From: Stentor roeselii
Taxonomy: Eukaryota > Ciliophora > Heterotrichea > Heterotrichida > Stentoridae
Assembly (NCBI GenBank): GCA_006503475.1
Contig: RSEH01000117.1
Location: forward strand, 79,849 to 143,848
DNA: 64,000 nucleotides
Direction: 5' to 3'
Shown here: positions 23,435 through 59,717 of the stretch, in pieces
Layout of the letters: each line of letters opens with the position of its first letter
Numbering within the stretch: position 1 is the first letter of the stretch
Notes under the pieces: model-generated
Database searches by the model: none
Seen by the model: only the letters and a program-made list of their open reading frames with translations
Told to the model about the DNA's origin: nothing
Program-made: the position numbers and the translations under genes

Positions 23435-26400
23435 ATGTTATCTTTAATTTGCCTAGCTCATCTTGTTCATTACTCATCAGGATCATGCGATTGGGGTTAT
23501 TATCCAAATTCACAAGGTTCATGTGATAAATGTGATAAAGCTTGTGGAGATTGCACTGCATCAGGAGCTCATAGTTGTGGGCAGTGCCACGGAGACTACT
23601 CTAAAATTCAAGGAATTTGCATGGATGATTGCCCTTTAGGCTTTAGTTCAAATTTAAATATCTGCGAAGACAAGACCTTGAACAAGATATGCTTCAACCT
23701 AAACTTCGAAACCTTCAAAAATGCAATCGAGGAGACAGTTCAAGTAGAAAAAACAATAATTTCCTTTTTCGCAGGTTCATCAGATGACTTCTACCCGGAA
23801 TACGACTCTTACGATCCTCACCCGATAGAAAAAAGAGGTTTTTACTTCGACGGGTCAGCTTACTTCAAAGGGACTGACTACCGAGTGACATTCGGGCCAG
23901 TTTTCACACTTGCCTTGTGGGTGAAGCCATTATCTAAAGATGGCTACTTCTTCGCAAAGCAAAACCAGTCATCAATAGCAATAGCTTTGAAACTATCCGA
24001 GTGGAAACCGATCTTCCAATTCAACCTGACAACGCTAAATACTTTCTCAAGTTCTACAACAATAACTCAGAACTCCTGGAGTTTCCTGATGGTTAAAATG
24101 ACTTTAGATGACTACAAAGCAAAAGTTTCGATTACTGTTAATTCGAATACAGTGACTTCTTCGGTTTTTTCTACTTTTTTCACTGATTTGTTCTCAGATT
24201 TTACCTTAACTTTTGGAGCTCAGTATTCTTCGAGTCAATACAGTGAGTTTTACAATGGGTTTATTTGGATGTTTCGCTTTGCTAACCAAGACCTGCCCAG
24301 TTCGACTTTTGTTCAGTCTTCAGGATGTTCAGGGTGTTCTCTTTGCCCAGTTGACAACTCCAATGCTTGTCTCTCAGATTGCGACTTTGACCAGTACTTA
24401 AACAATTCCAGTTGTTTTGACTGCACCGAGGACTGCAAAACCTTTGGCTGTGTGAGAGGCGATTTAAAGTGCAACTTATGTAAAGATCAGAAATGTTATG
24501 AATGTGAAAGTTTTGAAAGCATCTGCACAAGTTGCATATCTAATGCTTTTTTTAATAATTCTACAAAGCTCTGTCAGTGTAACTATAACTATATTTGGGA
24601 TGAAACAGTTGAAGTGTGTAGAAGTTGTGGAATGAACTGCAAGACCTGTGATGGAGGAGGGTACCTTGGATGCTCTGAATGTTTTGATGACTTTTTCATG
24701 CATTGGGGGCTTTGTTTGTCGACTTGTCCCACAGGTTATGAGAAGTCAGGAAGCCAATGTGTGTTGAAAGATAGTAAAAGGATTCTGGATATGAAATTCA
24801 ATAAAATTGAAGGAGTTGTTTATGATTCGAATAATAGCATCCCTGCTGTTACAGGGACCAGCTCTGTATTTTACCCTGATTATGAAACTGATGATCCTAT
24901 TGCAGCTTATCGAAGAGGGTATTATTTTAATGGCACTTCTTTGATGAACTTCGCTCCGTATCTGAATTATACAAGTCCTTTCCTTATGTTTTCACCAGCT
25001 TGTTATATTGGGATTTGGGTTAAACCTGAAGAAGGAAATGGAATTTTGCTATCATCTGTGAACTCGACTTACAGTCCTCTTGTTGTTTTGTTTCTGAATA
25101 ACTCTTATCCTTCTATTTCACTTTATCTGGTGAAAGCTTCTTTGAATTATGAAAAAGTTTCTACTTATAATTGTCAAAAATCACTAACATTGAACAGTTG
25201 GAGTTATTTGGTGTTAAAGATAACACTCGATAAAAATGAAAGGACTTTTATCACTTGTTATATCAATACAGTCAGTTCTACTTCAGAGAGCATCGGACAA
25301 GGACATCTATCAGACACGAGACGTGACAATAAAATGATTGCAGGAACGAAACAAACTAGTTCAAGTACTTATGATTCTAGTTACTTTAAAGGATTTATCT
25401 ACCAAATCATCGTTGATGTTGATCTAGATAATCCCAACTCTGGATATTCCACTTCTTGTGAATCAGGATGCTCTGCTTGCCCAGTGGATAAAACTTGCCT
25501 TTCGCCTTGCAAAATTAATCAATACCCATCCGGTACTGACCTAATGAGCTGTTCCTCATGTCACCAGAACTGCCAAAAAAAAGGATGTATCAACTCAAAT
25601 GACACTTGCAATATTTGTGCAGATGAAACCTGCAAAGTTTGTAACTCATATTTGAATGACAGTTGTTTAAGTTACTTTTGCAATGAAACTCAATATAAAA
25701 AGAAAGGAATGACTGAATGCAAAAATTGTGATTCGTCTTGTGCGACTTGTGACGGTGATGGTCCGATGAACTGCACCAGTTGCAGCTCGAATTATTTTTT
25801 ACTGAATGGAGGATGTCATAGCTTTTGCCCGACTGGATACAGTTCAAGTAATAATAAATGCACTTTGAAACAATATCTCATTTTTCAACTCAATTTATTG
25901 GAAATTCGGGCAATGGTCCCTGAAAAAATATATGATTTTAGTGTAATTGCTGGAAGTGATATGATGTTTTATCCTGATTTTGATAAGAATGACCCGATTC
26001 CAGTTATTAGAAGAGGGCATTATTTTAATGGAAGCTCTTATTTGGATTTGCCTCCGAATAGTAATAGCTCGGAATTTCCGACACTTGGAAATCAGTTCAC
26101 TTTTTCTATTTGGTTCAAATCAGAATCAGATGGGATACTTTTTTCTAAGCAAGATAGCAATTTTAATACTTATATACAAATTAAAATACTTCAAAACAAT
26201 AAGGTGAAAGTAGAAGTAAAGTTGGATAGTTTAACATCTATGACCAGTTCCTCCTCAATAAGTTCAAACTGGACCTATTTAACCCTAACCATCTCCTACG
26301 AATACGATTCAAAAACGCGATCATCCCTATCCTTAAACAACAACCCAGAATTCCACACTCTAGGTTCGGGCAAATACAACGACGACCAATCAACATCCTG

Positions 26401-29400
26401 CCATCTAACAATAGGTGCAGAAAGATCCTCATCCTCATTCCTCAACAACTGGAAAGGTTTTCTCTACTCATTCAACATTTTCTCCCTAAGTAAAGACCCG
26501 AAAGAATTCTCCTCTTCCTGCAATTCCGAAACTTTTTCCTGTTCAATCTGCCCAGAAGACACCAACGAATGTCTCGACACTTGCCCTTCAACTGCCTGGT
26601 GGAACGATTCAAAGTGTCAGGACTGTCAAAAGTGTTCCTACGAGTCCTGCCGAAGAAACGACCGAAGTTGCAATCTTTGTCTTGACGTTCAATGCGAAAT
26701 TTGTCATACTTTCTGGAGTGGCAGCTGTGATCAATGCAAGGAAAATGCTGAGTTGGTTGATGGAGAATGCACCTGCAAAGATGGATTTTTTTGGAATAAT
26801 TTTGAGGAAAAGTGCTTGACTTGCTCGGGACTTGTTGTTGAGGGAAATTGTGCTCAGGCTTGTCCTACTGGGTTTAGTGTTAATGGGAAGAAGTGTGAAG
26901 GGAAAGGGGAATTGGTTTTTGAGGTACGACTTGATAAAAAGATTAGCGATAGGGTTGTTGACTCTGTTCGGGGAATTGAAATTGATGCTGGATTTACCAG
27001 TGAGTTTTACCCTTATTATGATTTTAATGACCCTTATGCGGGAAAGGATCGAGGGTATTACTTTAATGGAGTTTCTAGTTATATGGCTTTTATTGATCAA
27101 AGTGAGAATAGTAAGGAATTGATTTTTAGTCCTTCTTTTACTGTTGCTTTCTGGGTCAACCCAAGCACAGGAGGTGTGATATTCTCAAAGCGTTCCTCAG
27201 GGGCGATCTGGCTCCAATTAGACCTAACAAGCGACCTAAACCTCACTCTAACCCTAAAGCTTTCCCAATACTCTACCTTGAAATCATCCTCATCATCAAA
27301 TCCACTATTAAAGTCCACTTGGAACCACATGGGTTTTTCTCTAAAATCCGAAGACGACACCTCAACAACTCTAAACTTCTTCATAAACAAATTAAAATCT
27401 TCTAAAACCTCCTTAGGACTGACCGGTTTTATCGACATATTCAGCTCTTACACTTTTACAATAGGAGCAGCAATAAACTCTTCATACATCCTGACCGATT
27501 TCTATACAGGTTACTTGCATTCTTTCAAAGTCTGGAACTACGAATTTGACTTGCTTCAAGAAGTGAAAACCAGCTGCTCAGGGTGTTCTTTTTGCCCAAA
27601 AGACGGGGTCTGTCTCCCTTCCTGCTCCCTTCACAAGTTCCTTTCAAGTACTTGCAAAGACTGCAGAGGAGCCTGCACGAAAGGATGTGTCAGAGCCGAG
27701 GACTGCAATTTATGCCATGATCGACTTTGTGAGTTTTGTGATGATTACTCTTCAACTGGGTGCTCCAAGTGTGTCGACGGCGCTGACTTCGACTCAGGCA
27801 TCTGCAAATGTTTAAATGGGACTGAAAAGGCGAGGACTAATGGAAATCTTTACTGTCAAAGTGAATGTTCTTCGAATTGTCTTGAATGTTTTTCTCTTCA
27901 AAATGGAGACTGCAGCTTGTGTCGTGAAGGTTTTTTTCTTGATGATGGACTCTGTGTATTTAACTGTCCTTCTGGGAAAAATATTGATGGGAAAAAATGT
28001 GTTGATAAAGGGAAGACGAAAGTAGTTCATTTTGTTTTCAATAAAACTATCAATGACCCTCCTGATCTCATCAAAGGGCTCAAGGCGTTCATGGGCTCAA
28101 CTGAGAAGTACTTGAAAGAATACGATGAGAACGACCCTATTCCTGTTTACAAAAGAGGAGTCTTCTTCGACGGCAACGCGAAATACGTTCAACTTCCGAA
28201 AAACCCAGCTGAAACCACAGAGGTCTTCTTAGGAAATCTTCATTCAATAAAAATCTGGATGCGAGGTCAAAGCAAGTCATCAACAGGCTGTATTTGCAGC
28301 AAAGAGTCAGATATTCAATATTTCAGTTTGACTTTAGACTCTTCACTCAAGCCGACTGTTCTTTATAATGTGAAAAACATCTACGATAATACCATTTTTT
28401 CAACTTTTTCCTCAGCTGGGAAGACACTTTCAAATGACGTGTGGCATGAACTCGTGATTCATTTCACCAGGTCAGGCAGGTCTTCAACTTCAAAGATTTT
28501 TATCGACGGGGAAGGATTTTCCTCTTCTTATGTGTTGAGGTCCTACTTCGACGAGCCTTCAGGAATGAATTTTAAGCTGGGCTACTCGGCTTTAAAAGGC
28601 TTTTCGTTCAAAGGTTTTATTTATGAGTTCATTATTTTTAACTATTTAGTCACTCCAACTGACCCAGAGGATTATAATTGTTACTGCGAATTATGCACTC
28701 AAGAAGGGGACTGTTTGAATAACTGTCAGTTTGATGAGTTGATTTTAAATAAAAATTGTGAAAGTTGCTTGGATCAATGTCCTTTTTCTTGCCTTGATAA
28801 TGAAGACTGCAGTTTGAATCCTGACCCGCTTTGTGAGAATTACTCTGGATTTGAGGGAAAGGATTGCTTTGAATGTGTAAAACTTGCTGAAATCACTGAA
28901 AATGGATGCAAATGTGGAAAGTTTACTGTTCCTTCTAAGTATTCTTGCACTTGTATTAGTCAATATGAAGAATTGCAAAATAAATGTGTTCCTTGCTTTT
29001 ATCATTTACAGAGAACTGATATTGATGCATATTTTAGTGAAGATTACATGGGAATTGAATTTGATATGAAGGTTTCTGTTCAGAGTTCGAGTAGTTCAAG
29101 TTGTTTTGAGTTATTTGAGGAGGAATCTTTAAATAAACTTGGAAAAGGGGCTACTTGTCAATGGAAGGAAGGAATGAAAAAGTTGAAAGTTCTGCTGGGG
29201 GATCAAGCGACTGTTGTCAACGGTACTGAAATCACATTCCAGATCAATACTTTATTAACAAACATCCAGCAATGTGGTAGTAACAGAGGCCCAATATCCA
29301 AATCACTTTACTATAAATTCCCCTTGCCAAAAATAATCCCAGAATCCCTAATAGACGCTCCTTACGACTACTACATGTTCTGCGGAGATCTTCTAATCTC

Positions 29401-32400
29401 AGGCAGTAGGTCAACAGGAGGATACGGTCGTAGCCTGTCATTTTTTTGGACATTCAACTCAAACCCTTACCTGGAAGTATTAACAAACAGTTCAGACCTC
29501 TCAAAAGCAGATCTTTTATATTCAAACAAGACTCTCTCCCCATCAAAAGTTCTAATTTTCCTGACAGTGACAAACTGGTTGGGTTTCAACGATTCCTCAA
29601 GCCAAACTCTCGAAATCCACTTAGGGTTCGGCATCCAGTTGACAATGGACAAAGATATCAAATGGAAGCTGACTACTCAGTACTCCAAGTCAATCTTCGT
29701 GTCTCCTGACAGTCTTTGCAAAATCTCTGATGACGTGACTTACACCTGGTCACTTGAGAAGATGACTGGAAATGACTCGTACTTCGATGCGGATTTATTT
29801 TGGCCTTCACAAAAGACACCTTCAAAGTTATATATTCCAAAAGGGTCATTAGGTCCTGGCTGGTATTCTTTTAAACTAGAAGTGCATGATAATCAATATG
29901 ATCTTGATGGGAAAACTTTTCTTAACTTTCTTGTTTTTTACTCGGATTTAGAAGTTAATTTCAACCCTTCTTATACCACTTTTAACAAACAAAGCGATTT
30001 GGTGTTGAATGGGGATGCGGCTCGAGACCCTGATAATATTTCTGAGAATTTTGAGTACTTTTGGACATGCTTTAATGGCTCTGACTGTAGTTACTTGCTT
30101 TCAAGTCAATTTGTGAAGGACCCGCTTGTTTCTAAGGAAAATTTGAATGATTTTTCGGAGTATTTGTTTAATTTGACTGTCAGTAAAGGAGAGAGAATAG
30201 GCTTCGGCGTTTTGACAGTTTTGGTTAATTCTTCAAGTAAAGTTTCAGCTTTTTTTGAAAAGCCGCCAGTTTTTGTCAACTTTCAAGAGAATTTCGTGTT
30301 GAGACCTCAACTTGATATTGAGTGCAACTGCTCGTTTCAGTGGGAAGTGGTAGAAGGGATTAAGTTTACGATTAATGACTCAACAAGTCTGCATCTTGGA
30401 ATCGAGCCTTTTACTTTGATTGAAGGAGAGGTCTATCTTGCTCAACTTTTGGTTTTAGATGAGGCTCAGGGAATATCTGTTTTTAGAGAAAGGTTTCAGG
30501 CTGACTTGCCACCTAGAGGAGGGACTTTTGAATGTAGGGAATTTAGTGATGATGGAGAAAGAGTTATTTATAAGTTACAGGCAACTGGCTGGAACGATCC
30601 CAAGGACAGTGGTTTGCCTCTTCAATATCAATTCGGTTTCTACCACGATGGAAGAGAAAAATTTTTCAATGTAAAAAACGAGTCATCAAGTTATTTCACA
30701 GCTCTTCCACCAATAACCCCTCTGACACTATTTGTAAGAGTTTACGACATCTACGGCTGTTACTCAGAGAAGACTTTAAATACTACAGTAAAACTCTTTC
30801 CGATAACCTTTGACATCATTCTTGAGGACTTCGAGCGAGTCATAAGCCTGACCTGGTCGGACCCAGACATTCTTCCAAGTTACATGACTTATTTTTCAGT
30901 GATATTAGAAGAGCAGTTAATCAACAGCACCCAAGTCGAGATTACTTTCAACCATTCTCTTGATGCAATAGAAAAAATGATGTCCTCATTCCAAGACATC
31001 GACTTTTCTAAACTCGACATTTTACTGAACATGGCTTATCTTCTCGGAAGTTTTCCTCTAGACTCCGAAAACAAAACTTCGATTTACCCTCTGCTGAGTT
31101 CTTTCACTGAGCTGGTCTCTGAGTACTCCATCCTGATGTCATCCAAACGAGGCGAGTCCTACATTGAAATACTTCAAGTCTCATCAGATATTCAAGAGAC
31201 ACTAGTCAACAACGAGCCTTCAACTCTTCTTCAAATAAATGAAATCCTGAAAACTCTTAGCCTTGCCAGCTCAACAACAATGGGGCAGTCTCAAAGTCTG
31301 TCATTCGGAAAGACCTCAATCCAGGTTTCTCTATCTTTAATCCGAGGAGACACTTTAACGAGATCTTTTCATTTAAAAAGTTCATCATCAGTGTCGATTC
31401 CAGGAAGTTTAAACCTCGCTTTTAACTCAAGTGAAACGATTTTAATGATTTTTTTGGTTTACAACTCAGAAGCTGGTCTTTATGAAACAAGTGAAGAGTT
31501 CTCATCTGCTGTTGAATTCGCATTGGTCAAGGTGAAAGGTGAATTTGCAGAGTACATTGAGGTGGACCTGAAGCCTGAAGTGTTACTTTTAACGATTCCT
31601 GTGTGGAACTTAGACGATTCGCCCAAATGTGTCTTTTGGGATCTGGACTCATGGTCGGATAAAGGATGTCGGCTTGTCGAGGTTGATGGAAACAGCAGTC
31701 TTTGCGGATGTAGTCACACTTCTCTTTATTCTGCTGGCTCCCATTTCATTCAGGATCAAAATGATCAGAATAAAGGACCTATCGTTATTTATATTTCTTG
31801 TGTTGTTGCTTTTTTGTGGCTTGTTCTTATTGCTTTCTTCTTGGTCAAGGATAAAAAGGAAAGTGAAAGCAAAATCTTTGTTGAAAAAATTCTGGCTGGG
31901 TTACCCTTGGCTGGATTCAAAAAATCGCCGAGAGTTAGACCGAATGATGTCGCTGATCAACTTGGAAGATTTGAAAAAATTGAAGAAAAAAGGGACTCGA
32001 ATTATGTTCCTGCAGCGCGGATTGGAATCGTTGGGGCTTATTTTGATGATAAAAGTAAAATTGATGAAAAAGAACTGGAAAAAATTAAGGGGAGTGAGTT
32101 GTACTCTGAAGTGAAAAGCGGAGTTTATGAAAAAGCCGAAATCTTACCCTTCGCTAAAACTCTACCATTAGAGGAGCTGAAAGTTCAAAGTTCCCCTGAA
32201 AAAACCTTAAAACCAGTGATTCAGTCAGAGTCCGTCTCAATCCTGCCATCTCAAAACTTCGAAGAAATGCGAAAGAAAAATTCAAAGCGAATGACAGCTC
32301 TTCAAAGATTCGAAGACTACGAAAAAGACTCAATTCCAAAACCAGAGCCAATAGAAGAGCTCAACTTAGACATTAAAAATCAAAAGCACATCCAAATCAA

Positions 32401-33559
32401 CGAAAACAAAGGAGGAATCCCAAGACCACTAACTCTTCCTCCATCAAACCTAAGCCCAAAACATTTCCCAAAGCTTCCAGGATTAATCCCGATCGAAATC
32501 GACCCAGACGTCGATTCAAAGCCAGAAAAATCATCAAATTTCTCAAAGCCAAATCCGCAAGGTCCTCAAAAACCCGAAATGCCCGAATTTGAAAGAAAAT
32601 CATTTAACTACGAAGCAGCCCCGACAAGAACAAGTTCAAAAAACGCTTCATTTAAAAAGCCGCAATTTTCTCCAATCGAGATAAATCCAAATGAAGATGA
32701 AGGAATCGAGTTAGAAGATGAAGAAAGGCCGAAGTCAAAAAATGAACCGGTTTACGTCTCGAAAAAATTTGATTATGTCGTCGCTGAGGACATTGAAGAA
32801 AAACATGACTCTGGAGAAAAAGCTGCTGGGGAACCGCGACAACTTCTGCAGGTTGAAAATAAAGGACCTGAAGAGGAAAAATTTGAAAATACTGAACTTT
32901 TCACAGCGCCGAACAGTCCTCGAGGTGCGAATCAGTTCAGAAGGAAGAAGCATGAGGACCAGGAAATTCCGAATATGCTTCAGATGGAAGAGAGGAATTA
33001 TTCACCTTGGGTCGCTGATTACTTTTTTTCTGCTGTTCTTTATTATCATGAAGTTTTTTCTCGCGTTGCAAGGTGCACCCAGGGTGTTGCTTCATTTTTA
33101 ATACAGGTGTTGTTTATAGGCTTAGTTCTCTCAGGAATGGGAGACCAGTACGCGGAAGATAAAGGCAGAAGGTTCGATGTGAAAGTTGCAAATTTAGAAT
33201 TTCAAGATGTTGCTGTTGGTTTTTCCATGGTTATTTTATGCAACTTTTTTACAAGTTTGTTACTTGTTTTCATTTTTAGAAAGGTGTTGATTAGTCCTTA
33301 CACGTTTGACTCAGAGAGAAATGAATTTATCAAGAAAAATAAGAAAATTGAAATGGTTGGGCTGATGGTGTTTTCTTTGATGATCCTTGGAAGTGTTATT
33401 GGGACTGGAATTCTAGAAATGATGATGGTTCGAGACCAGTCAGTCCTCTGGGCGATTATTCTCTTTATCGCTTTTGTGATTGACTTTTTCCTTATCCAGA
33501 TCCTAAAAATCGCAGTCTATCATTACCTCACCCCAGGCCTCATCCTGCCTTCTAAGTAG
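23435..33559 (+). CDS. Giant Cys-rich / lectin-like / REJ / GPS multi-pass membrane protein
   Basis: The 3374-residue protein starts with a signal peptide. Five units follow of about 350 residues, each a furin-like Cys-rich stretch plus a concanavalin/laminin-G-like domain. The signature resembles FYPDYDxxDPxxxxRGxYFNG and occurs near nt 23782, 24865, 25965, 27000 and 28096. PKD/REJ-like beta domains occupy about residues 1930-2460 (PRGGTFECREF, YQFGFYHDGR). A GPS-like site lies at about 2731-2768 (CVFWD ... CGCSHTS), just before a membrane helix at about 2780-2805. A long charged cytoplasmic segment follows (about 2806-3190), then four more membrane helices. The layout recalls polycystin-1/REJ receptors but has fewer helices. 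A surface sensing or adhesion role is inferred. No intron or frame break was seen. Confidence 0.88.
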   Translation: MLSLICLAHLVHYSSGSCDWGYYPNSQGSCDKCDKACGDCTASGAHSCGQCHGDYSKIQGICMDDCPLGFSSNLNICEDKTLNKICFNLNFETFKNAIEETVQVEKTIISFFAGSSDDFYPEYDSYDPHPIEKRGFYFDGSAYFKGTDYRVTFGPVFTLALWVKPLSKDGYFFAKQNQSSIAIALKLSEWKPIFQFNLTTLNTFSSSTTITQNSWSFLMVKMTLDDYKAKVSITVNSNTVTSSVFSTFFTDLFSDFTLTFGAQYSSSQYSEFYNGFIWMFRFANQDLPSSTFVQSSGCSGCSLCPVDNSNACLSDCDFDQYLNNSSCFDCTEDCKTFGCVRGDLKCNLCKDQKCYECESFESICTSCISNAFFNNSTKLCQCNYNYIWDETVEVCRSCGMNCKTCDGGGYLGCSECFDDFFMHWGLCLSTCPTGYEKSGSQCVLKDSKRILDMKFNKIEGVVYDSNNSIPAVTGTSSVFYPDYETDDPIAAYRRGYYFNGTSLMNFAPYLNYTSPFLMFSPACYIGIWVKPEEGNGILLSSVNSTYSPLVVLFLNNSYPSISLYLVKASLNYEKVSTYNCQKSLTLNSWSYLVLKITLDKNERTFITCYINTVSSTSESIGQGHLSDTRRDNKMIAGTKQTSSSTYDSSYFKGFIYQIIVDVDLDNPNSGYSTSCESGCSACPVDKTCLSPCKINQYPSGTDLMSCSSCHQNCQKKGCINSNDTCNICADETCKVCNSYLNDSCLSYFCNETQYKKKGMTECKNCDSSCATCDGDGPMNCTSCSSNYFLLNGGCHSFCPTGYSSSNNKCTLKQYLIFQLNLLEIRAMVPEKIYDFSVIAGSDMMFYPDFDKNDPIPVIRRGHYFNGSSYLDLPPNSNSSEFPTLGNQFTFSIWFKSESDGILFSKQDSNFNTYIQIKILQNNKVKVEVKLDSLTSMTSSSSISSNWTYLTLTISYEYDSKTRSSLSLNNNPEFHTLGSGKYNDDQSTSCHLTIGAERSSSSFLNNWKGFLYSFNIFSLSKDPKEFSSSCNSETFSCSICPEDTNECLDTCPSTAWWNDSKCQDCQKCSYESCRRNDRSCNLCLDVQCEICHTFWSGSCDQCKENAELVDGECTCKDGFFWNNFEEKCLTCSGLVVEGNCAQACPTGFSVNGKKCEGKGELVFEVRLDKKISDRVVDSVRGIEIDAGFTSEFYPYYDFNDPYAGKDRGYYFNGVSSYMAFIDQSENSKELIFSPSFTVAFWVNPSTGGVIFSKRSSGAIWLQLDLTSDLNLTLTLKLSQYSTLKSSSSSNPLLKSTWNHMGFSLKSEDDTSTTLNFFINKLKSSKTSLGLTGFIDIFSSYTFTIGAAINSSYILTDFYTGYLHSFKVWNYEFDLLQEVKTSCSGCSFCPKDGVCLPSCSLHKFLSSTCKDCRGACTKGCVRAEDCNLCHDRLCEFCDDYSSTGCSKCVDGADFDSGICKCLNGTEKARTNGNLYCQSECSSNCLECFSLQNGDCSLCREGFFLDDGLCVFNCPSGKNIDGKKCVDKGKTKVVHFVFNKTINDPPDLIKGLKAFMGSTEKYLKEYDENDPIPVYKRGVFFDGNAKYVQLPKNPAETTEVFLGNLHSIKIWMRGQSKSSTGCICSKESDIQYFSLTLDSSLKPTVLYNVKNIYDNTIFSTFSSAGKTLSNDVWHELVIHFTRSGRSSTSKIFIDGEGFSSSYVLRSYFDEPSGMNFKLGYSALKGFSFKGFIYEFIIFNYLVTPTDPEDYNCYCELCTQEGDCLNNCQFDELILNKNCESCLDQCPFSCLDNEDCSLNPDPLCENYSGFEGKDCFECVKLAEITENGCKCGKFTVPSKYSCTCISQYEELQNKCVPCFYHLQRTDIDAYFSEDYMGIEFDMKVSVQSSSSSSCFELFEEESLNKLGKGATCQWKEGMKKLKVLLGDQATVVNGTEITFQINTLLTNIQQCGSNRGPISKSLYYKFPLPKIIPESLIDAPYDYYMFCGDLLISGSRSTGGYGRSLSFFWTFNSNPYLEVLTNSSDLSKADLLYSNKTLSPSKVLIFLTVTNWLGFNDSSSQTLEIHLGFGIQLTMDKDIKWKLTTQYSKSIFVSPDSLCKISDDVTYTWSLEKMTGNDSYFDADLFWPSQKTPSKLYIPKGSLGPGWYSFKLEVHDNQYDLDGKTFLNFLVFYSDLEVNFNPSYTTFNKQSDLVLNGDAARDPDNISENFEYFWTCFNGSDCSYLLSSQFVKDPLVSKENLNDFSEYLFNLTVSKGERIGFGVLTVLVNSSSKVSAFFEKPPVFVNFQENFVLRPQLDIECNCSFQWEVVEGIKFTINDSTSLHLGIEPFTLIEGEVYLAQLLVLDEAQGISVFRERFQADLPPRGGTFECREFSDDGERVIYKLQATGWNDPKDSGLPLQYQFGFYHDGREKFFNVKNESSSYFTALPPITPLTLFVRVYDIYGCYSEKTLNTTVKLFPITFDIILEDFERVISLTWSDPDILPSYMTYFSVILEEQLINSTQVEITFNHSLDAIEKMMSSFQDIDFSKLDILLNMAYLLGSFPLDSENKTSIYPLLSSFTELVSEYSILMSSKRGESYIEILQVSSDIQETLVNNEPSTLLQINEILKTLSLASSTTMGQSQSLSFGKTSIQVSLSLIRGDTLTRSFHLKSSSSVSIPGSLNLAFNSSETILMIFLVYNSEAGLYETSEEFSSAVEFALVKVKGEFAEYIEVDLKPEVLLLTIPVWNLDDSPKCVFWDLDSWSDKGCRLVEVDGNSSLCGCSHTSLYSAGSHFIQDQNDQNKGPIVIYISCVVAFLWLVLIAFFLVKDKKESESKIFVEKILAGLPLAGFKKSPRVRPNDVADQLGRFEKIEEKRDSNYVPAARIGIVGAYFDDKSKIDEKELEKIKGSELYSEVKSGVYEKAEILPFAKTLPLEELKVQSSPEKTLKPVIQSESVSILPSQNFEEMRKKNSKRMTALQRFEDYEKDSIPKPEPIEELNLDIKNQKHIQINENKGGIPRPLTLPPSNLSPKHFPKLPGLIPIEIDPDVDSKPEKSSNFSKPNPQGPQKPEMPEFERKSFNYEAAPTRTSSKNASFKKPQFSPIEINPNEDEGIELEDEERPKSKNEPVYVSKKFDYVVAEDIEEKHDSGEKAAGEPRQLLQVENKGPEEEKFENTELFTAPNSPRGANQFRRKKHEDQEIPNMLQMEERNYSPWVADYFFSAVLYYHEVFSRVARCTQGVASFLIQVLFIGLVLSGMGDQYAEDKGRRFDVKVANLEFQDVAVGFSMVILCNFFTSLLLVFIFRKVLISPYTFDSERNEFIKKNKKIEMVGLMVFSLMILGSVIGTGILEMMMVRDQSVLWAIILFIAFVIDFFLIQILKIAVYHYLTPGLILPSK
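23490..28700 (+). repeat. Five tandem domain repeats inside the giant protein gene
   Basis: The encoded Cys-rich plus lectin-like unit recurs five times, with signatures spaced 1083, 1100, 1035 and 1096 nt apart. The copies are old: proteins align at the signature, at the cysteines (for example SGCSxCPVD) and at a central W-x-F/Y-L strand, but nucleotide identity is low. The fifth copy is the most divergent (KYLKEYDENDP). Confidence 0.85.
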
Positions 33560-33585
33560 TAATCATTTTTCATAAATTATATAAA

Positions 33586-34014
33586 ATGATGGCTTTACTT
33601 CAGAGGTCCTTCACAAGAAAAGTTTTAATGATACCTCCTTGGAGCCAAAAAATGTACAGAGACCCTTTCGACTACCCACTTCGTAGTCTTGAAGAAGTCA
33701 AAGCGGAATTTGAAAGGTTCCCTATTGATAAATCAGCAAGAATCGAAATAGTTCAATTCAAAGATCGATTAAAAAATGATCCAAAGTATGTTGACCCTCC
33801 TAATGTGGTGGTTAAAATGTGGATTGATATGAATGGGTGGAACTTGACTCCTTTGCAGAAGGAGAGACTTGCTTTTTTACTCGGTCCGAGATATAAACAA
33901 GGAGAATCTGAGTTCAAGATTGTATCAAGACAATATCCTGAAAGGCAACAAAATATTCAGAAATGTCTTGATATCGCTTATGAGTTGTTAATGGAATGTA
34001 AGAGAGCTCCTTAA
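33586..34014 (+). CDS. Mitochondrial small-subunit ribosomal protein mS35 (MRPS28/Rsm24 type)
   Basis: The 142-residue protein fits the mS35 family. Supporting stretches are a VVVKMWIDMNGWNLTPLQKERLAFLLGPRY core (residues about 84-113), followed by a basic strand (SEFKIVSRQYPERQQN) and a helix ending LLMECKRAP. The N-terminus MMALLQRSFTRKV is Arg-containing with no acidic residue, as expected for mitochondrial import. It would be part of the mitoribosomal small-subunit head. It starts only 26 bp after the stop of the giant protein gene, in an ATATAAAATG context. Two adjacent ATGs allow a start at 33586 or 33589. Confidence 0.82.
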   Translation: MMALLQRSFTRKVLMIPPWSQKMYRDPFDYPLRSLEEVKAEFERFPIDKSARIEIVQFKDRLKNDPKYVDPPNVVVKMWIDMNGWNLTPLQKERLAFLLGPRYKQGESEFKIVSRQYPERQQNIQKCLDIAYELLMECKRAP

Positions 34015-34685
34015 AGTAGATAGTAATTTCTTTCTCAGACTACAAGAGTTTATTCGATACTTTTAGTAACAATTAAATAAAGCAAGATGCGAATTTTTTA
34101 AATAAGTACTCAGGAAATAAAATACATTATGAAAATAAACTTTAATCGTTAATGATGATTCATGATTCAATCTAATGAATCTAAGATTAAGATATTCTAT
34201 GAGAAAAAATAATAATAAATATTTCGATAATTATTTTGTTTCTCAGAATTCAATTCTGGCCATATATAGATGAAAAAACTCCGAACTCTAAATAATACTC
34301 ATAATCAATATATTTGCTTATTTATAAATAATCTTGGTTTGTCTTTCGATTCATTCGAGTTTATTATCAGATTAAACTCGAGCCCTGAATGAATATTTCT
34401 AACTCTTGACACAAATACAATAGATTCATTTCAAAACGATTCTTAAATTGCAAGATATTTAAATTTTCAACATCCTTGAAAAATCATAAACTGTTTAGAT
34501 CTTGAGTTATTTGATTAAAACTGAAATATTGATATTTAGGCTGTAATTATCAATCAAACAACGCCAAAATATAATTTTGTTAATGGGAAACATTTACGCA
34601 AATAATGTATTATTCTATTTAGCTCTGCTGTAAAGGAAGCTTTCTCAGTCAATTTGAACTTGAAATTAAGGATGGAAATTTTGAC
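34015..34685. other. Intergenic region with inverted repeats
   Basis: This 671-bp region has no convincing gene. It contains a notable imperfect hairpin (34351-34399, described separately). It also has a motif near 34172-34189 that differs by one base from one in the 13.5-kb spacer. The DNA is AT-rich with several ATT/AAT runs. Confidence 0.6.
34355..34381. repeat. Inverted repeat (TCGAGTTTA / TAAACTCGA)
   Basis: Nine-base perfect arms at 34355-34363 and 34373-34381 enclose a 9-nt loop. Outside them TTCATT (34350-34355, sharing one base) and AATGAA further right can extend the hairpin past a bulge. The arms are less AT-rich than the surrounding DNA. Confidence 0.7.
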
Positions 34686-35549
34686 ATGAATTCTTTAGAA
34701 GAAGACTCAAGTGCTCAGCACATGAATTTCGAGATTTCTAACATTAAAGAAATCACACCAATCTCTAAAATATTCGAAACTTCTTATAAAGACCAGAGTT
34801 TTGACAGGTCACGTTTACAGAAACTTGAGAAAGCAATTTATTACGCAAAAGTCCTGAGCATTACAATCCAAAACACAGACATCTTCCACAAAAAAATTAT
34901 TATAAACGCGCTCGGCTGCGAAACATCTCTTCGAGGCATAAAAGACGGTCAGACCTTTTTCGGTTCAAAGAAAAAGGACTCAAAAGGAGGAACAACAATA
35001 AACGACATAGTTCTTCCATTAGTAACACCCGAGCTCGCCGAAAGTTACAGAGGAAAGCATTTCATGATTTCCTACGACCTAAGCCGAGACTCCTACTTCA
35101 TAAAAGACCTTCGACTTGGTTTCGGAACATACTACCGACTGACCTCCTCAATCGACTTAAAAAACAACACCTTGATCCTTATCGGCGAAACTTATATCTT
35201 GACATCCTTCCTTCAAACCTACAAAGAATCCTCTAAAATCAAACTAAAAATTTACGGCAAAGGCATCGGCGACGTTTTTTTCTTCAGTGCTTCAGACTGT
35301 TCAGAAAATTGCATCACAATCGGCAGACAAGAAAATTGTGATGTGAGGCTTCAAGGTAGTCTTGTTTCAAAAGTACATTGCACTATTTTTTATACTCCGG
35401 AAAAAGGCTGGGTGTTATATGACGGAGACATCGCTAGTAACCAGTTGAGTAGAAATGGCACTTGGATTTACATAAGTGATAATATAGAAATATTTGACTC
35501 CATGGTGTTTAAATCAGGGAGAGTGCTTTTTAGGGTTGATATTTTGTAG
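34686..35549 (+). CDS. FHA-domain protein
   Basis: The 287-residue protein has a C-terminal forkhead-associated domain at about residues 195-285. It contains the GR of ITIGRQENCDVRL, the S-K-V-H core of SLVSKVHCTIFY, the strand GWVLYDGD and the conserved N of SRNGTWI. FHA domains bind phosphothreonine peptides. The N-terminal part has a second region with a KFMISYDLS-like beta pattern (about residues 115-180), which may be a degenerate second FHA fold. No kinase or other catalytic domain is attached. Many ciliates have such stand-alone FHA proteins. It ends in TAG, and the LTA4H gene starts 19 bp downstream. Confidence 0.85.
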   Translation: MNSLEEDSSAQHMNFEISNIKEITPISKIFETSYKDQSFDRSRLQKLEKAIYYAKVLSITIQNTDIFHKKIIINALGCETSLRGIKDGQTFFGSKKKDSKGGTTINDIVLPLVTPELAESYRGKHFMISYDLSRDSYFIKDLRLGFGTYYRLTSSIDLKNNTLILIGETYILTSFLQTYKESSKIKLKIYGKGIGDVFFFSASDCSENCITIGRQENCDVRLQGSLVSKVHCTIFYTPEKGWVLYDGDIASNQLSRNGTWIYISDNIEIFDSMVFKSGRVLFRVDIL

Positions 35550-35568
35550 TGATTAGGTATTAATATAA

Positions 35569-37299
35569 ATGGATCCTTGCTCGCTTTGTAATGCTGATCA
35601 AGTTAAGATTACGCATGTGGACTTGCACCTTACTTGTGATATGAGAAGCTCGGTTTTGTTTGGAAGGGCTGTTTATAGATATGAGCCGAAAAATGCGGAT
35701 AGGATGGTTTTGGATACGAATCATTTGAAAATTTTACAGTGCTCGAATTCGTTTAAGGTGCTTGATACTCATCCGGTTTATGGAACAGGGTTAGAAGTTC
35801 AACTACCTGGCACCGGAGAGAGCTTTTCTTTAGATTTCCAAACTACTGAATCTGCCACAGCGGTTCAGTATCTTAGCCCGAGCCAGACGAATTCTAAATC
35901 TCATAGTTATATATATACTCAATGTCAAGCAATCCACTGTCGGAGTCTTTTCCCTTGTCAGGACACTCCGATGGTGAAATTTACGATATCATATCAATTG
36001 ACAGTCCCACTTAATTACAATGCAGTAGCAGCAGGAATTTATCAAGGCAGACAAGAGTCAATTCCAGGGTACCAGACATTTACTTATCTCCAGGCAATCC
36101 CAATACCTTCATATCTTGTCGCATTTGCAAGCGGTAACATCAGTTCATACACCCTACCAAACCCAAAATTCACATTCTACGCGGAGCCTGAAATATTACC
36201 TTTAGCAATAACAGAATTCTCGGACATCGGGCAGTTACTATCAGCAGCCGAAGAAATAATGACTCCTTATTTCTGGGGAAAGCTTGACTTGCTGATCCTT
36301 CCAGGTTCCTTCCCCTTTGGAGGAATGGAAAACCCGAACCTAATCTACGTGACTCCAAGTATTATCTCAGGCGACAAGTCACTAATCAACGTGATTGCCC
36401 ACGAAATCGCTCATTCATGGACAGGCAACGCAGTGACTAACTCAACATGGGCGCATTTCTGGCTCAACGAGGGGTTCACCGTTTATTTCGAAAGGAAAAT
36501 AATAGCAAAAGTCTTCGGAAAGCAGCAAGCTGACATGGAACAATTGAATGGTTTAACAGTGCTGCAAAAGACTGTGAACTTATATGGAAATGACCACAAT
36601 TTCACTAGACTCAACCTTGATATCGACTCGATTGACCCGGATGATGCATTTTCCGCGATTCCCTATGAAAAAGGCTGTTGTTTTTTACTTTACTTGGAAA
36701 ACCTTGTCGGAGAAAGTCACTTTTTAGAGTTTTTAAGAGAGTATGTCTCGAATTTTCAAGGAAAAAATTGTGATAGTCAGGGTTTTAAGACTTTCTTTTT
36801 GGAGAAGTTTACTGTTGATATTGATTGGAATGAGTGGCTTCGAGGAACTGGAATGCCTCCTTGGCTACCCAATATTGAATGTCCTTTACTTCAACAGGTT
36901 CGTGATTTCAGTGAAAACTTCAGAAGTTCAGCGAAACCTCAAGGGTGGTGCACTGAACAGTTTGTTGCACTTTTGGAAGAGTTTAACAAGAAACCTTGTG
37001 AGGAATATGTTCAGGTCGCTGAAGGACTTGGAATTCATTTGACGAAAAACTCTGAAATCAGGGTGTTGTGGCTTATACTTGTTGCTAAGACTAGAACTGA
37101 AAGGTATTACTCGGATATCAGTCAGTTTTTAGCGGAGATTGGAAGATTGAAGTTTACCAGGCCATTGTTTAGAGCACTGGTCGAGTCGGATTTAAAAAAC
37201 CTTGCTCTTCAGATATTTGGGAAAAATAAGGATTTCTATCATTCTACATTGGTTGGACTTTTGCATAAAGAATTTGGATTTGGTAGTTTAGGTAATTAA
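35569..37299 (+). CDS. LTA4H: M1 metallopeptidase, leukotriene A4 hydrolase type
   Basis: The 576-residue enzyme has the M1 zinc site HEIAHSW beginning at H278, with the third ligand Glu301 in FWLNEGF. The substrate motif GGMENPN lies near residue 252. The family N-terminal beta domain is present (HVDLHLTCDM, LDTNHLKI), as is the C-terminal helical domain (residues about 445-570). The PFGGMENPNL-x-YVTPS stretch and overall order match leukotriene A4 hydrolase and related aminopeptidases. It is likely a cytosolic aminopeptidase; epoxide hydrolase activity cannot be judged. All catalytic residues appear intact. The length is close to the human enzyme (611 aa). It is convergent to CK2 beta. Confidence 0.93.
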   Translation: MDPCSLCNADQVKITHVDLHLTCDMRSSVLFGRAVYRYEPKNADRMVLDTNHLKILQCSNSFKVLDTHPVYGTGLEVQLPGTGESFSLDFQTTESATAVQYLSPSQTNSKSHSYIYTQCQAIHCRSLFPCQDTPMVKFTISYQLTVPLNYNAVAAGIYQGRQESIPGYQTFTYLQAIPIPSYLVAFASGNISSYTLPNPKFTFYAEPEILPLAITEFSDIGQLLSAAEEIMTPYFWGKLDLLILPGSFPFGGMENPNLIYVTPSIISGDKSLINVIAHEIAHSWTGNAVTNSTWAHFWLNEGFTVYFERKIIAKVFGKQQADMEQLNGLTVLQKTVNLYGNDHNFTRLNLDIDSIDPDDAFSAIPYEKGCCFLLYLENLVGESHFLEFLREYVSNFQGKNCDSQGFKTFFLEKFTVDIDWNEWLRGTGMPPWLPNIECPLLQQVRDFSENFRSSAKPQGWCTEQFVALLEEFNKKPCEEYVQVAEGLGIHLTKNSEIRVLWLILVAKTRTERYYSDISQFLAEIGRLKFTRPLFRALVESDLKNLALQIFGKNKDFYHSTLVGLLHKEFGFGSLGN

Positions 37300-37508
37300 A
37301 AAATTGATCAATAGCAGTTTTTTAAAGAATAGGATATTTTTCTGATATTTTTTCTTCAGAATCCAATTTCTAACATTTACTGAAATCACATCAAAACAAT
37401 ACCTCACAACTTCCTTCTCAACTAATTCCACTAAAATAGGTATAAACTTAACCATCACCCAACCTTCCAAACCCTAACAACTCAAATCTCCTCAAAAATA
37501 GTATATAG

Positions 37509-38195
37509 TTAAATAACCCTATACCTAGTCTCTACTTTCTCAGCATAAACTCCTCTACCTTTATTGACTTTGAATCCATGTATTTTGGGTTCATAAGGTT
37601 TATGTTCTTGCAGAGGATACAAAAACGGGAACTCCTGCAACAAAACATGAGGAAAAGAAGTTCCAAAGAAAGACCCATCAATTTCAATATTCCTGTCCTT
37701 CGGGTAGTACATATCTTGACACCTCGGACAAAAGACCTTGACCCTCGAAGTCTTCATTTCATTCGTGACTCCAACAGGCATAACGAAATGTTTATCACAC
37801 AAGACCCGAGGACAAACTCCAAACTTCCCAGCCAAATACTTTTCTCTCATAATCGTCAGTCCTGTTTGACTTTGAATGAACCTCGCATGAATTAAGCCAT
37901 AAAGATCAGTGCAAGACTGATAAAGTTCAAAGTACTTCTCATTTTGCAAGTCTTCTTCATCTGGAATGCCTCCGTTGATAATCTGAAAGTAACACTCTTC
38001 GAAATTCGGGATTTTTGAGGGTAGGTTGTAAAAGTTTGACTTGTCTTTCAGGAACTCATCAGTCACTTCAGCTAGAATGTCGTGGCCTTCTAAAGAACAG
38101 AACCATTGGACCCATTTGACCTCTGATGAAGCGCTTTCTTCTTCTTCTTGTGCTTGACTTGAGTTTTCTTCTGAGTCCGAGTTATATTCAGACAT
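37509..38195 (-). CDS. CSNK2B: Casein kinase 2 regulatory subunit beta
   Basis: The 228-residue protein has the CK2 beta features. It has an acidic Ser-rich N-terminus, the core start WVQWFCSLEGHDILAEVTDEFL, and the acidic loop region PDEEDLQNE. It keeps the dimerising zinc site with its two Cys pairs (CPRVLC and CPRC), and the C-terminal SFFGTSFPHVLLQEFP. CK2 beta forms the tetrameric holoenzyme and steers the catalytic subunit. The N-terminal tail (residues 1-24) carries extra acidic repeats. The start context is TTATAAATG. The stop is TAA and the gene is convergent to the LTA4H gene, with 209 bp between the stops. Confidence 0.96.
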   Translation of the reverse strand: MSEYNSDSEENSSQAQEEEESASSEVKWVQWFCSLEGHDILAEVTDEFLKDKSNFYNLPSKIPNFEECYFQIINGGIPDEEDLQNEKYFELYQSCTDLYGLIHARFIQSQTGLTIMREKYLAGKFGVCPRVLCDKHFVMPVGVTNEMKTSRVKVFCPRCQDMYYPKDRNIEIDGSFFGTSFPHVLLQEFPFLYPLQEHKPYEPKIHGFKVNKGRGVYAEKVETRYRVI

Positions 38196-38322
38196 TTATA
38201 ACCCGCAATGAAAGGAATTTTCGATTAGGACTTAGTTTTAAGAAGTGGTTGAACTTTAGAGAAATGAAGAACTTCTAGATTTACTTGAATTTCAATTAAT
38301 ACTATTTTTAACTTGAAGGGGG

Positions 38323-39132
38323 ATGAAAGACAAACTTTACAGTAAAGTCAACGACTCTTTTCATAGTCTTGGCGAGTGCATTATGGACAAACTTCAAGTG
38401 AATAACGGTGAAGAGATCGATGTGAAGTACTCTCGGACTTTAGGATCATTTAATATTTCAAAAAATGACCCAGAAGCGTCTTTTAAGGTCCCAATGTCTC
38501 ATTCAAACACTTGTCCCATGCATCGAGTCCAGTCAGAACTAGGAATGACTCAAGTGATTCCGAAGCAAGTTCCTGTTTTCAGTTCTTTGATCCTGAAATC
38601 AAGTGACCAGAAAGTTCTTTTGATGAGACAAACTGAAACTTTAGGCCTTGCAAGCAAAAGCTGGGGATTTTCATATCGAAAAATGCAGTTGAAAGAGTCG
38701 TTGTTCAAGGGAGGGATCAGGGCGTTGAGAGAAGATGCAGGGATCAACATAGTAGAATCCGGGAATTCAGCTTATTTTTTCGATATTCCCCTGGAAATAA
38801 AACCGCTTTGCCTTTACGAAAGCATTTTTCCTAAAATCCTTGAACATGGCCTGCCTCGGAACCAGGCGCTGATAATGTTTTCAGAAGTTTATCTTCCTTT
38901 TGAAGCCGAAGAAATTAAAGTAAAAAGAAACAATGTTGACTTTTTAGTGTGGCTTGACAAGGAAGACTTCAACGACATCCAAGAAGGAAGGAAAGTTTAT
39001 TTAAGTCCTACTGACTCTTCAGTGAAACTTGATCATAAGTGCTTCAAAGGAATTGCACCGAATAAAGTTGGGGAAGGAATCAGTGAAGGTCATTTGAATG
39101 CACTTGTCTTGGCTTTTAATAGTGAGGGTTAA
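38323..39132 (+). CDS. NUDT17-like Nudix-fold protein with degraded Nudix box
   Basis: The 269-residue protein aligns with NUDT17. Supporting stretches are LLMRQTETLGLASKSWGF, then a Nudix-box region at about residues 124-145, and C-terminally YESIFPKILEHGLPRNQ, which matches the NUDT17 WESVYP...GLP segment. The box reads RKMQLKESLFKGGIRALREDAGI. Compared with the consensus G-x5-E-x7-R-E-U-x-E-E-x-G-U, the first Gly is Arg, the RE Glu is Ala and EE is ED. Loss of these residues suggests weak or no pyrophosphohydrolase activity. The N-terminal 60 residues are unrecognised. The stop is 9 bp before the next gene. Confidence 0.78.
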   Translation: MKDKLYSKVNDSFHSLGECIMDKLQVNNGEEIDVKYSRTLGSFNISKNDPEASFKVPMSHSNTCPMHRVQSELGMTQVIPKQVPVFSSLILKSSDQKVLLMRQTETLGLASKSWGFSYRKMQLKESLFKGGIRALREDAGINIVESGNSAYFFDIPLEIKPLCLYESIFPKILEHGLPRNQALIMFSEVYLPFEAEEIKVKRNNVDFLVWLDKEDFNDIQEGRKVYLSPTDSSVKLDHKCFKGIAPNKVGEGISEGHLNALVLAFNSEG

Positions 39133-39141
39133 TTACTTTGA

Positions 39142-39951: not shown

Positions 39952-40051
39952 TTATTACTGCAGTTGTGAATGACTGTCATTTCAATATTGAAAAATCAGT
40001 ATTTTTGTTAGTTATTCATGCGAAAATGATATAAATTCGGTTAAATAATAA

Positions 40052-50095: not shown

Positions 50096-50163
50096 AAGCT
50101 CTTAACATTAAATTGTTTATAGTTATCTATTTTTAAATTTCATACTTTTCCTATTATTAGTTA

Positions 50164-52455: not shown

Positions 52456-52568
52456 CAGAAAAATAGTTCATTTTCTAAAGGAAATGAATAAATAGATTAT
52501 TATCGAGTTATCAAATATATAGTTTCTATTATATTTTAATAATTAACCTAAATATCATCATTCATTAT

Positions 52569-53840: not shown

Positions 53841-53855
53841 TATTATAGCCAGCAT

Positions 53856-55431: not shown

Positions 55432-55718
55432 CTTTAATTAATGAATTAGAAGATTAAATACTTGATTTAGTTCCAATTGAATTTGGATAATGATTAAAAA
55501 TATATTTTCAGTTTACTTTACTAAAATTAAAAAGCAAATGTTTATATCTCATTAGCAGTGATTTAACCCATTGACATGAAACACTCAGTGCATGATCTAC
55601 TTCAATAATTCTAAACTTACCCATAAAAAACTAATTTCAATCCAATCTCCAAAATCTAAAACCCAAAAACCCAAAACCCTAATCCAAACATTCCACAATC
55701 AAATAAACCCCACAGCTA

Positions 55719-58304: not shown

Positions 58305-58313
58305 TTATAAGCA
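58305..58313. promoter_or_regulatory. 9-bp bidirectional start region, AP beta / SHMT
   Basis: The spacer TTATAAGCA between the two divergent ATG codons contains a single TATAA. Each gene's core promoter must lie in this spacer, in the other gene's first codons, or both. It is the shortest divergent gap in the window. Confidence 0.65.
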
Positions 58314-59717
58314 ATGGCTCTTAGAAGATGCATCTCAGTTGCTCAGCAGGCTCTCAATAAAGGACTCATTGAAACTGACCCTGAATTCGTCAGGATTTTG
58401 GAAATGGAAAAAATTAGACAAAAAGATAGTGTTGTGCTTATCGCCTCGGAAAACTTTACCTCGAAAGCAGTGCTTGAAGCACTTGGGTCTGTGATGACTA
58501 ATAAGTACTCAGAAGGATACCCTGGGGCAAGGTACTATGGAGGTAATGAGTTTATTGATATGGCGGAAAACTTGTGTCGTCAAAGAGCTTTGAAAGCTTT
58601 TAGACTTGATGATGATAAATGGGGAGTCAATGTTCAACCTTTAAGTGGGTCTCCTTGTAATTTTTATGTTTATACTGCCATTCTTGGACCGCATGAAAGA
58701 ATGATGGCACTTGATTTGCCTCATGGTGGACATTTGTCGCATGGGTTTCGCACTGATCTTCGCAAGGTCTCGGCGACTTCTATTTATTTTGAATCACTTC
58801 CTTATAGGCTGGATGAAGGAACTGGCTTGATAGACTATGAAAAATTACATGAGAATGCGAAGTTGTTTAGACCTAAGTTAATTGTTGGGGGATATAGTGC
58901 CTATTCAAGAGACTACAACTACGAAAAAATGAGACAAATCTGCGATGAAGTCGGAGCAGTTTTCATGTACGACATGGCTCACACAAGTGGTTTAGTAGCA
59001 GCAGACGTGGGTCTTGAAGACCCATTCAAATACGCCGACATCGTAACAACAACAACTCACAAAAGTCTTCGAGGCCCTCGAGGTGCGATGATTTTTTACC
59101 GAAAAGGTTTCAAAAAGGACAAAAAAGGTCAAGACGTGCCTTTAAACTACGAAAGTCGCATCGATTCAGCAGTTTTTCCAGGTCATCAAGGGGGTCCTCA
59201 CAACCACACGATTTCCGCATTGGCAGTGGCTTTAAAACTAGCGACTTTGCCTGAATTCAAAGAGTATCAACGACAGGTGCTGAAAAATGCAAAGTCTTTC
59301 AGTGAGGACTTGAAACATCTTGGATTTAATATCGTCACTGGAGGAACTGATAATCATTTAATGCTTGTTGATTTGAGGAATCAAGGAATTGATGGAGCAA
59401 GACTGGAGAAAACATTGGAAGCTGCGAATATTGCTTCTAATAAAAATACTATTCCTAGTGATAAAAGCGCACTTACTCCTAATGGAATTAGGTTTGGAAC
59501 TCCAGCTATGACTAGCAGAGGACTTATGGAAAAGGACTTTACTGATATTGCGATGTTTGTAAAGCAGGCTGCTGATATTGCTAAGGATGTCAAGGCGAAA
59601 AATCCGAATGGGAAAATTGCTGATTTTGCTAAGGATTTGAAGGAGGATATTAATATTGGAAATTTGAAGAAACAGGTGGAAAAATTTGCTTCGGCTTTTC
59701 CTACTATTGGGTGGTAG
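58314..59717 (+). CDS. SHMT: Serine hydroxymethyltransferase
   Basis: The 467-residue enzyme has the SHMT hallmarks. They include [18 protein letters not shown], the [19 protein letters not shown] stretch, the PLP-lysine site [13 protein letters not shown] (Lys250), GGPHNH, and the C-terminal [14 protein letters not shown]. It interconverts serine and glycine, loading tetrahydrofolate with a one-carbon group. The N-terminus [17 protein letters not shown] is basic and amphipathic, which suggests mitochondrial import; a cytosolic form is possible from another start. Length equals the family norm. Base skew switches at about 58885 and 59330 inside the gene. It ends in TAG, followed by a G+T-rich 100-bp flank. 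Confidence 0.97.

Follow-up and report, generated by a model that had tools for sequence, protein, structure and literature searches.

Regional strand asymmetry of base composition is already known, and strand-composition domains, which usually extend over many kilobases or form one gradient per gene, help to locate replication origins and to infer mutational processes. Human replication N-domains, for example, are a sawtooth of the combined G+T skew with a sharp rise at origins. In unicellular fungi, as described in the excerpts of PMC3315797 used here, the coding strand is biased toward C at the 5' end and toward G at the 3' end of genes, and this skew, attributed there to the phases of transcription, extends into flanking noncoding DNA and affects fourfold sites and amino acids. 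The leading strand of Saccharomyces cerevisiae and Kluyveromyces lactis, and by the same author's analysis that of Candida albicans, is enriched in adenine and cytosine, and the skew at the intergenic yeast origins can be used for origin prediction (excerpts of PMC3459929). Around human meiotic hotspots, it is the forward strand that becomes exposed by resection to the left of the break, and the flanking mutations on this strand are C>N and A>N, mirrored about the break on a kilobase scale (excerpts of PMC7615360). Finally, a mirror-symmetric bias is tied to the DNA ends of the gene-sized chromosomes of the ciliates Nyctotherus and Oxytricha (excerpts of PMC2633312 and PMC3558436, respectively).

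Here we describe a 64,000-nucleotide stretch of DNA from the ciliate Stentor roeselii (positions 79849-143848 of contig RSEH01000117.1, or C23; hereafter, the window), in which blocks rich in G and T alternate with blocks rich in A and C in coding and noncoding DNA. The resulting bias is mirror-symmetric, as in the gene-sized ciliate chromosomes, but the bias reported for Nyctotherus is a purine bias within about 50-130 bp of telomeres, whereas that in Stentor is a keto bias, lies in the interior of long contigs and spans about 500 bp. To our knowledge, a kilobase sawtooth that runs through exons in all parts of a genome that were sampled is undescribed in the open-access literature searched, subscription papers and preprints being outside that search.

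Alternating blocks in coding and noncoding DNA

The alternation of GT-rich and AC-rich blocks is confirmed as real and extends beyond the window. The sample is 304 kb of one genome (an assembly of 44.39 Mb in 522 contigs) and consists of the window, 20 contig starts and a further 40 kb of one contig (C20:10-50 kb); the results below refer to the whole sample unless the window is named. The alternation is present in third codon positions, in noncoding DNA and, more weakly, in codon positions 1 and 2, with a median block of 558 bp. The open reading frames (ORFs) are mechanical calls, not annotated genes; in the window, long ORFs are dense under the standard code, and the stops of complete ORFs in the sample are TAA (86), TAG (44) and TGA (20).

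The original prediction, made by reading the window alone, described third positions that switch within genes between 26230 and 59330. The base counts quoted in its support are exact (37 G+T with 4 C in 27061-27120, 41 A+C with 2 G in 27241-27300, and 42 A+C in 12121-12180). A two-state hidden Markov model (HMM; GT-rich and AC-rich states), run without knowledge of the proposed edges at 11990, 26230, 26700, 27150, 27810, 29220, 58885 and 59330, places them at 11988, 26234, 26687, 27151, 27811, 29219, 58901 and 59258, respectively, so that seven of the eight agree within 16 bp and the last one is off by 72 bp. The pattern is present in the interval proposed but is confined neither to it nor to coding sequence, given that noncoding DNA and the rest of the sample switch too.

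Synonymous shuffles and skew walks bear out the further claim that codon choice is set by place along the DNA and not by gene. When codons are shuffled synonymously within genes (32 window ORFs, 17,565 codons, 100 shuffles), the T-versus-C and the G-versus-A choice are positively cross-correlated over lags of 2-99 codons (z 7.9 to 19.5) and negatively over 100-399 codons (z -2.7 to -17.5), with a weak positive correlation over 400-599 codons (z 7.0); none is detected at lag 1 in these ORFs (z -0.6). The skew walk, based on codon-box-corrected residuals and compared with 500 shuffles of their order, is larger than in over 95% of the shuffles for 27 of the 33 ORFs in the window that have 200 codons or more, as anticipated; at least 99.8% of the shuffles are exceeded in 23 ORFs, the 95% level is not reached in 6, and the 10-kb ORF at 23435-33559 exceeds 97.6%.

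The variance of G+T counts relative to the binomial expectation is 2.2 in bins of 60 bp and 6.4 in bins of 480 bp but flat beyond, and this plateau implies that a length scale exists. The pooled raw keto autocorrelation is about 0.017 at 18-33 bp, changes sign close to 400 bp and takes values of about -0.003 between 525 and 725 bp, with a similar course in the window, in the 20 contig starts and in C20:10-50 kb. The two controls, both non-eukaryotic, were 50 kb each of Escherichia coli K-12 and phage G. Their short-lag autocorrelation is smaller by a factor of at least about six, no clear negative lobe is seen in either 50-kb sequence, and the step variance relative to white noise is 0.98-1.12, compared with 1.25-2.58 in Stentor; at a single width, w=120, E. 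coli has a small negative step skewness (-0.099, sd 0.042), but its step variance is not in excess. A phage protein search found homologues of bacterial type only and was not used. Chance and amino acid composition as causes of the alternation are ruled out by the synonymous shuffles, the codon-box-corrected residuals and the two controls. Protein-repeat periodicity of the 10-kb ORF was also rejected: the five copies of its motif are spaced by 1041-1104 nt, and the nearest GT-to-AC switches lie at no fixed offset from it.

The bias acts on all classes of sites. With states called from codon-box-corrected third positions only and significance taken against 60 shifted tracks, the difference in keto fraction between the states amounts to 0.054 at codon position 1 (z 7.4), 0.037 at position 2 (z 4.3) and 0.168 in noncoding DNA near ORFs (z 14; 1,770 bases). 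GT-rich states are enriched 1.53-fold in valine, whereas proline falls to 0.69-fold. Both A/T and G/C shift between the states, and noncoding A+T climbs toward the GT-to-AC switch, the gaps being AT-rich. The excess of T over C is apparently strongest before G (log odds 2.74, compared with 1.32-1.71 before A, C and T); because of symmetry, the C/T and G/A entries of this context table duplicate each other, and the states are called from the same bases, so no claim about a deaminase is made. Separately, CpG is mildly depleted in the window and sampled loci (observed/expected 0.69, compared with 0.91 for GpC).

Selection on RNA or DNA folding, whereby the blocks would prevent or favor base pairing or would place nucleosomes, could account for an effect at synonymous sites, the more so as GT-rich or AC-rich stretches are expected to be poor in self-complementarity. 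However, the shift is equally large in noncoding DNA, reaches the amino acids, depends on the length of intergenic gaps (see below) and has a kilobase rather than a nucleosomal scale, which makes this explanation highly improbable. For the same reasons, namely the noncoding shift, the involvement of codon positions 1 and 2 and the lack of the signature at gene ends beside tiny gaps, the avoidance of RNA structure and the GU/AC pairing between blocks that had been suggested at first are not supported. The proposed nucleosome link is not supported in scale, a fitted period of 1.56 kb and a median spacing of 1.2 kb being set against a nucleosome repeat of roughly 0.2 kb.

A sawtooth with sharp GT-to-AC points

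A point is defined here as a GT-to-AC switch read left to right on the plus strand. A GT-to-AC edge stays GT-to-AC after reverse complementation and, therefore, the two kinds of edges can differ physically. They do: the pattern is a reverse-complement-symmetric sawtooth in which GT-to-AC edges are sharp and AC-to-GT edges are gradual. On the plus strand, G and T prevail to the left of each point and A and C to its right; on average, the skew dies away over some 0.5 kb. The original prediction, in which the edges were sharp throughout, overlooked this difference between the two kinds.

The local step skewness is -0.31 (sd 0.07) at w=120, GT-to-AC drops being the sharper ones, and -0.03, -0.19, -0.34 and -0.19 at widths of 40, 80, 200 and 300; at w=120, it is -0.31 (0.07) in the 20 contig starts and -0.44 (0.05) in C20:10-50 kb. 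The slope within blocks is positive (0.031, se 0.005, 373 blocks). In the interior of 28 ORFs of at least 700 codons (codon-box-corrected third positions, first and last 100 codons dropped, five paralogue loci included), the step skewness is -0.54 (sd 0.09) at 40 codons, compared with -0.01 (sd 0.04) for shuffled order. Edges called from the data look sharp by construction; hence, T/C sites alone were used to call the states and G/A sites to read them, and vice versa. With calling on T/C, the 100-bp bins that flank 153 GT-to-AC points read +0.21 and -0.12, whereas successive bins across 157 AC-to-GT points read -0.15, -0.02, -0.05 and +0.13. The converse reading gives +0.14 and -0.23 at 118 GT-to-AC points and -0.17, -0.01, +0.08 and +0.18 at 124 AC-to-GT points. 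The points are spaced by a median of 1.2 kb and a mean of 1.36 kb with a coefficient of variation (CV) of 0.52 (194 intervals). Among the models fitted to the autocorrelation over 31 bins, a damped cosine with a period of 1.56 kb is best (chi2 13.8); a random telegraph, that is, memoryless alternation (chi2 201, or 136 with a constant), and an odd box kernel (chi2 300) were rejected.

The two kinds of edges also differ in location: 92 of the 215 GT-to-AC switches but only 34 of the 212 AC-to-GT switches lie outside ORFs. Gene scrambling, which is known in some ciliates, would yield sharp-edged alternation inside genes if germline segments with a uniform strand bias were mutually inverted and then unscrambled. 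This explanation is very unlikely here because inversion predicts equally sharp edges of both kinds and does not predict that one kind gathers in gaps.

The gaps that separate ORFs of 450 nt or more were counted with 60 bp margins and with fractions converted to counts. A GT-to-AC point occurs in 2 of 26 such gaps at lengths up to 30 bp, 2 of 10 at 31-80 bp, 6 of 11 at 81-150 bp, 6 of 13 at 151-300 bp, 19 of 21 at 301-600 bp and 30 of 33 above; the corresponding counts for AC-to-GT switches are 5, 2, 0, 0, 2 and 16. Longer gaps give more room, so that some rise is expected. In the 35 gaps of 150-1000 bp that hold a single point, the place of the switch is broadly distributed. A sharp point at 18885, for example, lies in the divergent gap 18784-18919, between an ORF that ends at 18783 and the next one, which starts at 18920. 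GT-to-AC points recur within long ORFs as well.

Across gaps of more than 60 bp, the left-to-right change in G+T balance between ORFs is -0.156 for convergent (21), -0.152 for divergent (18) and -0.137 for tandem neighbors (41). A rule that follows the mRNA, with an AC-rich 5' end and a GT-rich 3' end, predicts the same result by orientation in larger gaps, and the tiny gaps, beside which such a rule ought to apply as well, discriminate. Tiny same-strand gaps may be 15-nt introns; hence, convergent and divergent neighbors were also tested alone. In these, the signature is -0.05 at gaps of up to 60 bp (18 gaps) and +0.18 at gaps of more than 100 bp (37 gaps), a difference reached in none of 20,000 permutations; tandem gaps agree (-0.01 in 16 and +0.15 in 39, respectively), and the result is unchanged with a limit of 40 bp and all orientations. 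Because gene ends at tiny gaps lack the signature, it is shown to belong to intergenic DNA and not to gene ends as such.

These observations bear on a bias tied to the phases of transcription, in which initiation would leave C-rich 5' ends and termination G-rich 3' ends on the coding strand. On average, the Stentor coding strand is indeed AC-rich at gene starts and GT-rich at gene ends, as in fungi, and the skew likewise enters flanking noncoding DNA and amino acids. However, besides the bare gene ends at tiny gaps, several cycles occur within single long ORFs instead of one gradient per gene, and A/T shifts along with G/C, whereas the fungal AT skew is flat along genes (excerpts of PMC3315797). 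Transcription is accordingly disfavored as the source and appears improbable.

The 10-kb ORF (23435-33559, plus strand, 3374 amino acids), a Pfam match to Laminin_G_3 repeats, contains several complete units of the sawtooth in its interior. According to the HMM, they are 26234-27150 (AC-rich to 26686, GT-rich from 26687), with a sharp drop at 27151; 27151-28048 (AC-rich to 27810, GT-rich from 27811); 28049-29218 (AC-rich to 28482, GT-rich from 28483), with a drop at 29219; 29219-30596 (AC-rich to 29755, GT-rich from 29756); 30597-32121 (AC-rich to 31421, GT-rich from 31422); and 32122-33441 (AC-rich to 32710, GT-rich from 32711). The profile of a paralogue on contig C517 (49% identical, 5 kb compared) bears on the first and third of these: the unit at about 26700-27700 with the drop at 27151 is common to both genes, whereas the drops at 28049 and 29219 are missing from the paralogue. 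The overall correlation is 0.38, with no shift as good in one comparison and 1.9% of shifts as good in another; on codons for differing amino acids, it is 0.26, with 6.7% of shifts as good.

The P4-ATPase-like ORF at 60375-63692 (minus strand, Pfam) was compared at third positions with four paralogues. Among these five genes (ten pairs, 49-57% identical), the drops are at differing places except in one pair, L038 and L039, the profiles of which coincide: r is 0.73, a value that no shift equals, and 0.70 on codons with differing amino acids only. In the other nine of the 11 paralogue pairs, the agreement does not clearly surpass that of shifted profiles; L036/L038 comes closest, 7.4% of the shifts being as good, or 3.9% when differing codons are used. 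Thus, on the few pairs compared, the intragenic points look like discrete sites that are able to persist and to turn over.

Breaks, origins and germline elements as possible sources

Taken together, the pattern fits a DNA-level process of strand-asymmetric substitution that spreads from discrete heritable points. Among the suggestions of the original prediction, strand-specific mutation is the best class of explanation. Under such a process, mutation rather than selection would be at work, and strand-asymmetric substitution would begin at the points, for the most part as C-to-T and A-to-G changes of one strand. As its source, we tentatively favor recurrent breakage or nicking with 5'-to-3' resection, to which we give somewhat less than even confidence. 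Breaks or nicks would recur at accessible or marked sites, for which meiosis, germline DNA elements and open chromatin are candidate causes; resection would then leave a single-stranded 3' tail, of the top strand to the left of the point and of the bottom strand to the right, and the exposed strand would lose the amino bases A and C. In line with this mechanism, the strand bias is mirrored about one sharp center with fading flanks, and A and C are depleted on the plus strand to the left of the point, as composition and not as new mutations. The sign agrees with that around human meiotic hotspots, where the asymmetry likewise has a kilobase scale but consists of new mutations at mapped hotspots, as opposed to the near-equilibrium composition and far denser points of Stentor (excerpts of PMC7615360).

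Yeast-type origins give the same sign and, therefore, the sign alone does not decide. The main rival to breakage and resection is that the points are dense, efficient replication origins with an A/C-rich leading strand, between which the skew drifts back. In its favor are the preference of the points for gaps, the sharp GT-to-AC jump at intergenic points and the fairly regular spacing expressed in the CV given above. However, the yeast skew is averaged in 10-kb windows around origins (excerpts of PMC3459929), whereas an efficient origin would be needed in Stentor every 1.2-1.4 kb, in many cases inside exons. The single-strand exposure of the lagging-strand template would be expected to yield the opposite sign, which is also that of human origins. 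Ordinary eukaryotic origins are tens of kilobases apart, and the human N-domains, although also a sawtooth, have a sign opposite to the pattern here and are about a thousand-fold larger. The replication-fork polarity of the original prediction is therefore retained as a serious alternative but, given the origin density it needs, a rather unlikely one.

Several observations weigh against breakage and resection. Step skewness in the window alone is only -0.25 (sd 0.15, w=120), which is not decisive by itself. No motif stands out at 121 coding and 88 noncoding GT-to-AC points among k-mers of 2-6 once their large number is considered, without formal correction. Coding A+T is flat across the points (0.62-0.66), so that cytosine deamination alone is excluded as the cause and C-to-T and A-to-G changes must roughly balance. 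Random points with an exponential tract fit poorly (odd exponential kernel, chi2 105, compared with 13.8 for the damped cosine), which means that the points are more regular or the tracts are not exponential. Finally, the skew reaches further in longer intervals, which leans toward origins, with the circularity that the intervals are defined from the skew itself.

A more specific and rather doubtful version of breakage and resection is that the points are present or past sites of micronuclear germline-limited elements (internal eliminated sequences, IESs), at which recurrent cutting and resection would have imprinted a bias of about 0.5 kb on each side. Blepharisma, given its genome size, has about one IES per kb. 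The density of points in Stentor (one per 1.2-1.4 kb), their occurrence in exons and their turnover between paralogues are compatible with IES sites. In the excerpts of the Blepharisma genome description used here, about forty thousand IESs are reported, approximately 70% of them intragenic, and genes make up 77% of the assembly; the points of Stentor prefer intergenic DNA more strongly, and IES sites explain neither this preference nor the lack of a PiggyBac match. A search for the PiggyBac-type excisase (PF13843), homologues of which are present in other heterotrichs according to published excerpts, gave no match in the genome, but 14 control genomes are silent too, so this result is uninformative. 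DNA searches of the genome with 26230-27800 and 20001-40000 yield, besides the queries' own place, only diverged matches (at most 82% identity) and, therefore, no second, element-bearing copy.

Genomic setting and implications

Complete sawtooth units are also found by the HMM elsewhere in the window. One, at 11988-13573, extends from inside a WD40/ion-channel-like ORF to beyond it (AC-rich to 12425, GT-rich from 12426) and ends in the following gap; another, at 58901-59974, occupies part of the serine hydroxymethyltransferase ORF (58314-59717) and the next gap (AC-rich to 59257, GT-rich from 59258). Two other window ORFs, 21850-22866 and 37509-38195, lie some 15 kb from each other; their DNA matches on contig C197 (15471-18362, 69-73% identity) are less than 3 kb apart, as might be expected of an old block that was duplicated or rearranged.

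Introns that rescue an ORF stop are of exactly 15 nt with GT-AG borders in seven cases, compared with none for CT-AG and one for GT-AC; these predicted spliceosomal introns (six sequences printed, seven counted) occur in loci L019, L020, L021 and L024 and in further sampled loci. Introns of 15 nt occur in heterotrichs, and these introns together with the compact genes probably match the somatic genome of a heterotrich ciliate. Contigs C1-C20 show no telomere-like repeat by eye in their first 80 bases and are probably not complete at the start. An Rfam scan of the window gave no match at gathering thresholds, and no tRNA was found in the 20 loci scanned. Seven 5S rRNA genes of identical score (112 bits) are located on five contigs (C15, C27, C150, C466 and C521), with two pairs close together. 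A short tandem repeat of about 31 bp was seen by eye between two genes (L029:601-720).

In Stentor, codon and amino acid usage vary with the distance to a point in the DNA, and analyses of codon usage and selection in this lineage are confounded at the 500-bp scale. The sawtooth would be an unusually dense record of germline breakage sites or of fork starts, and such events could be mapped from ordinary somatic sequence. If the points are indeed IES sites, the pattern would be more than a regional strand asymmetry of a known type, and the somatic sequence would be a readable fossil map of germline elements, down to amino acid usage.

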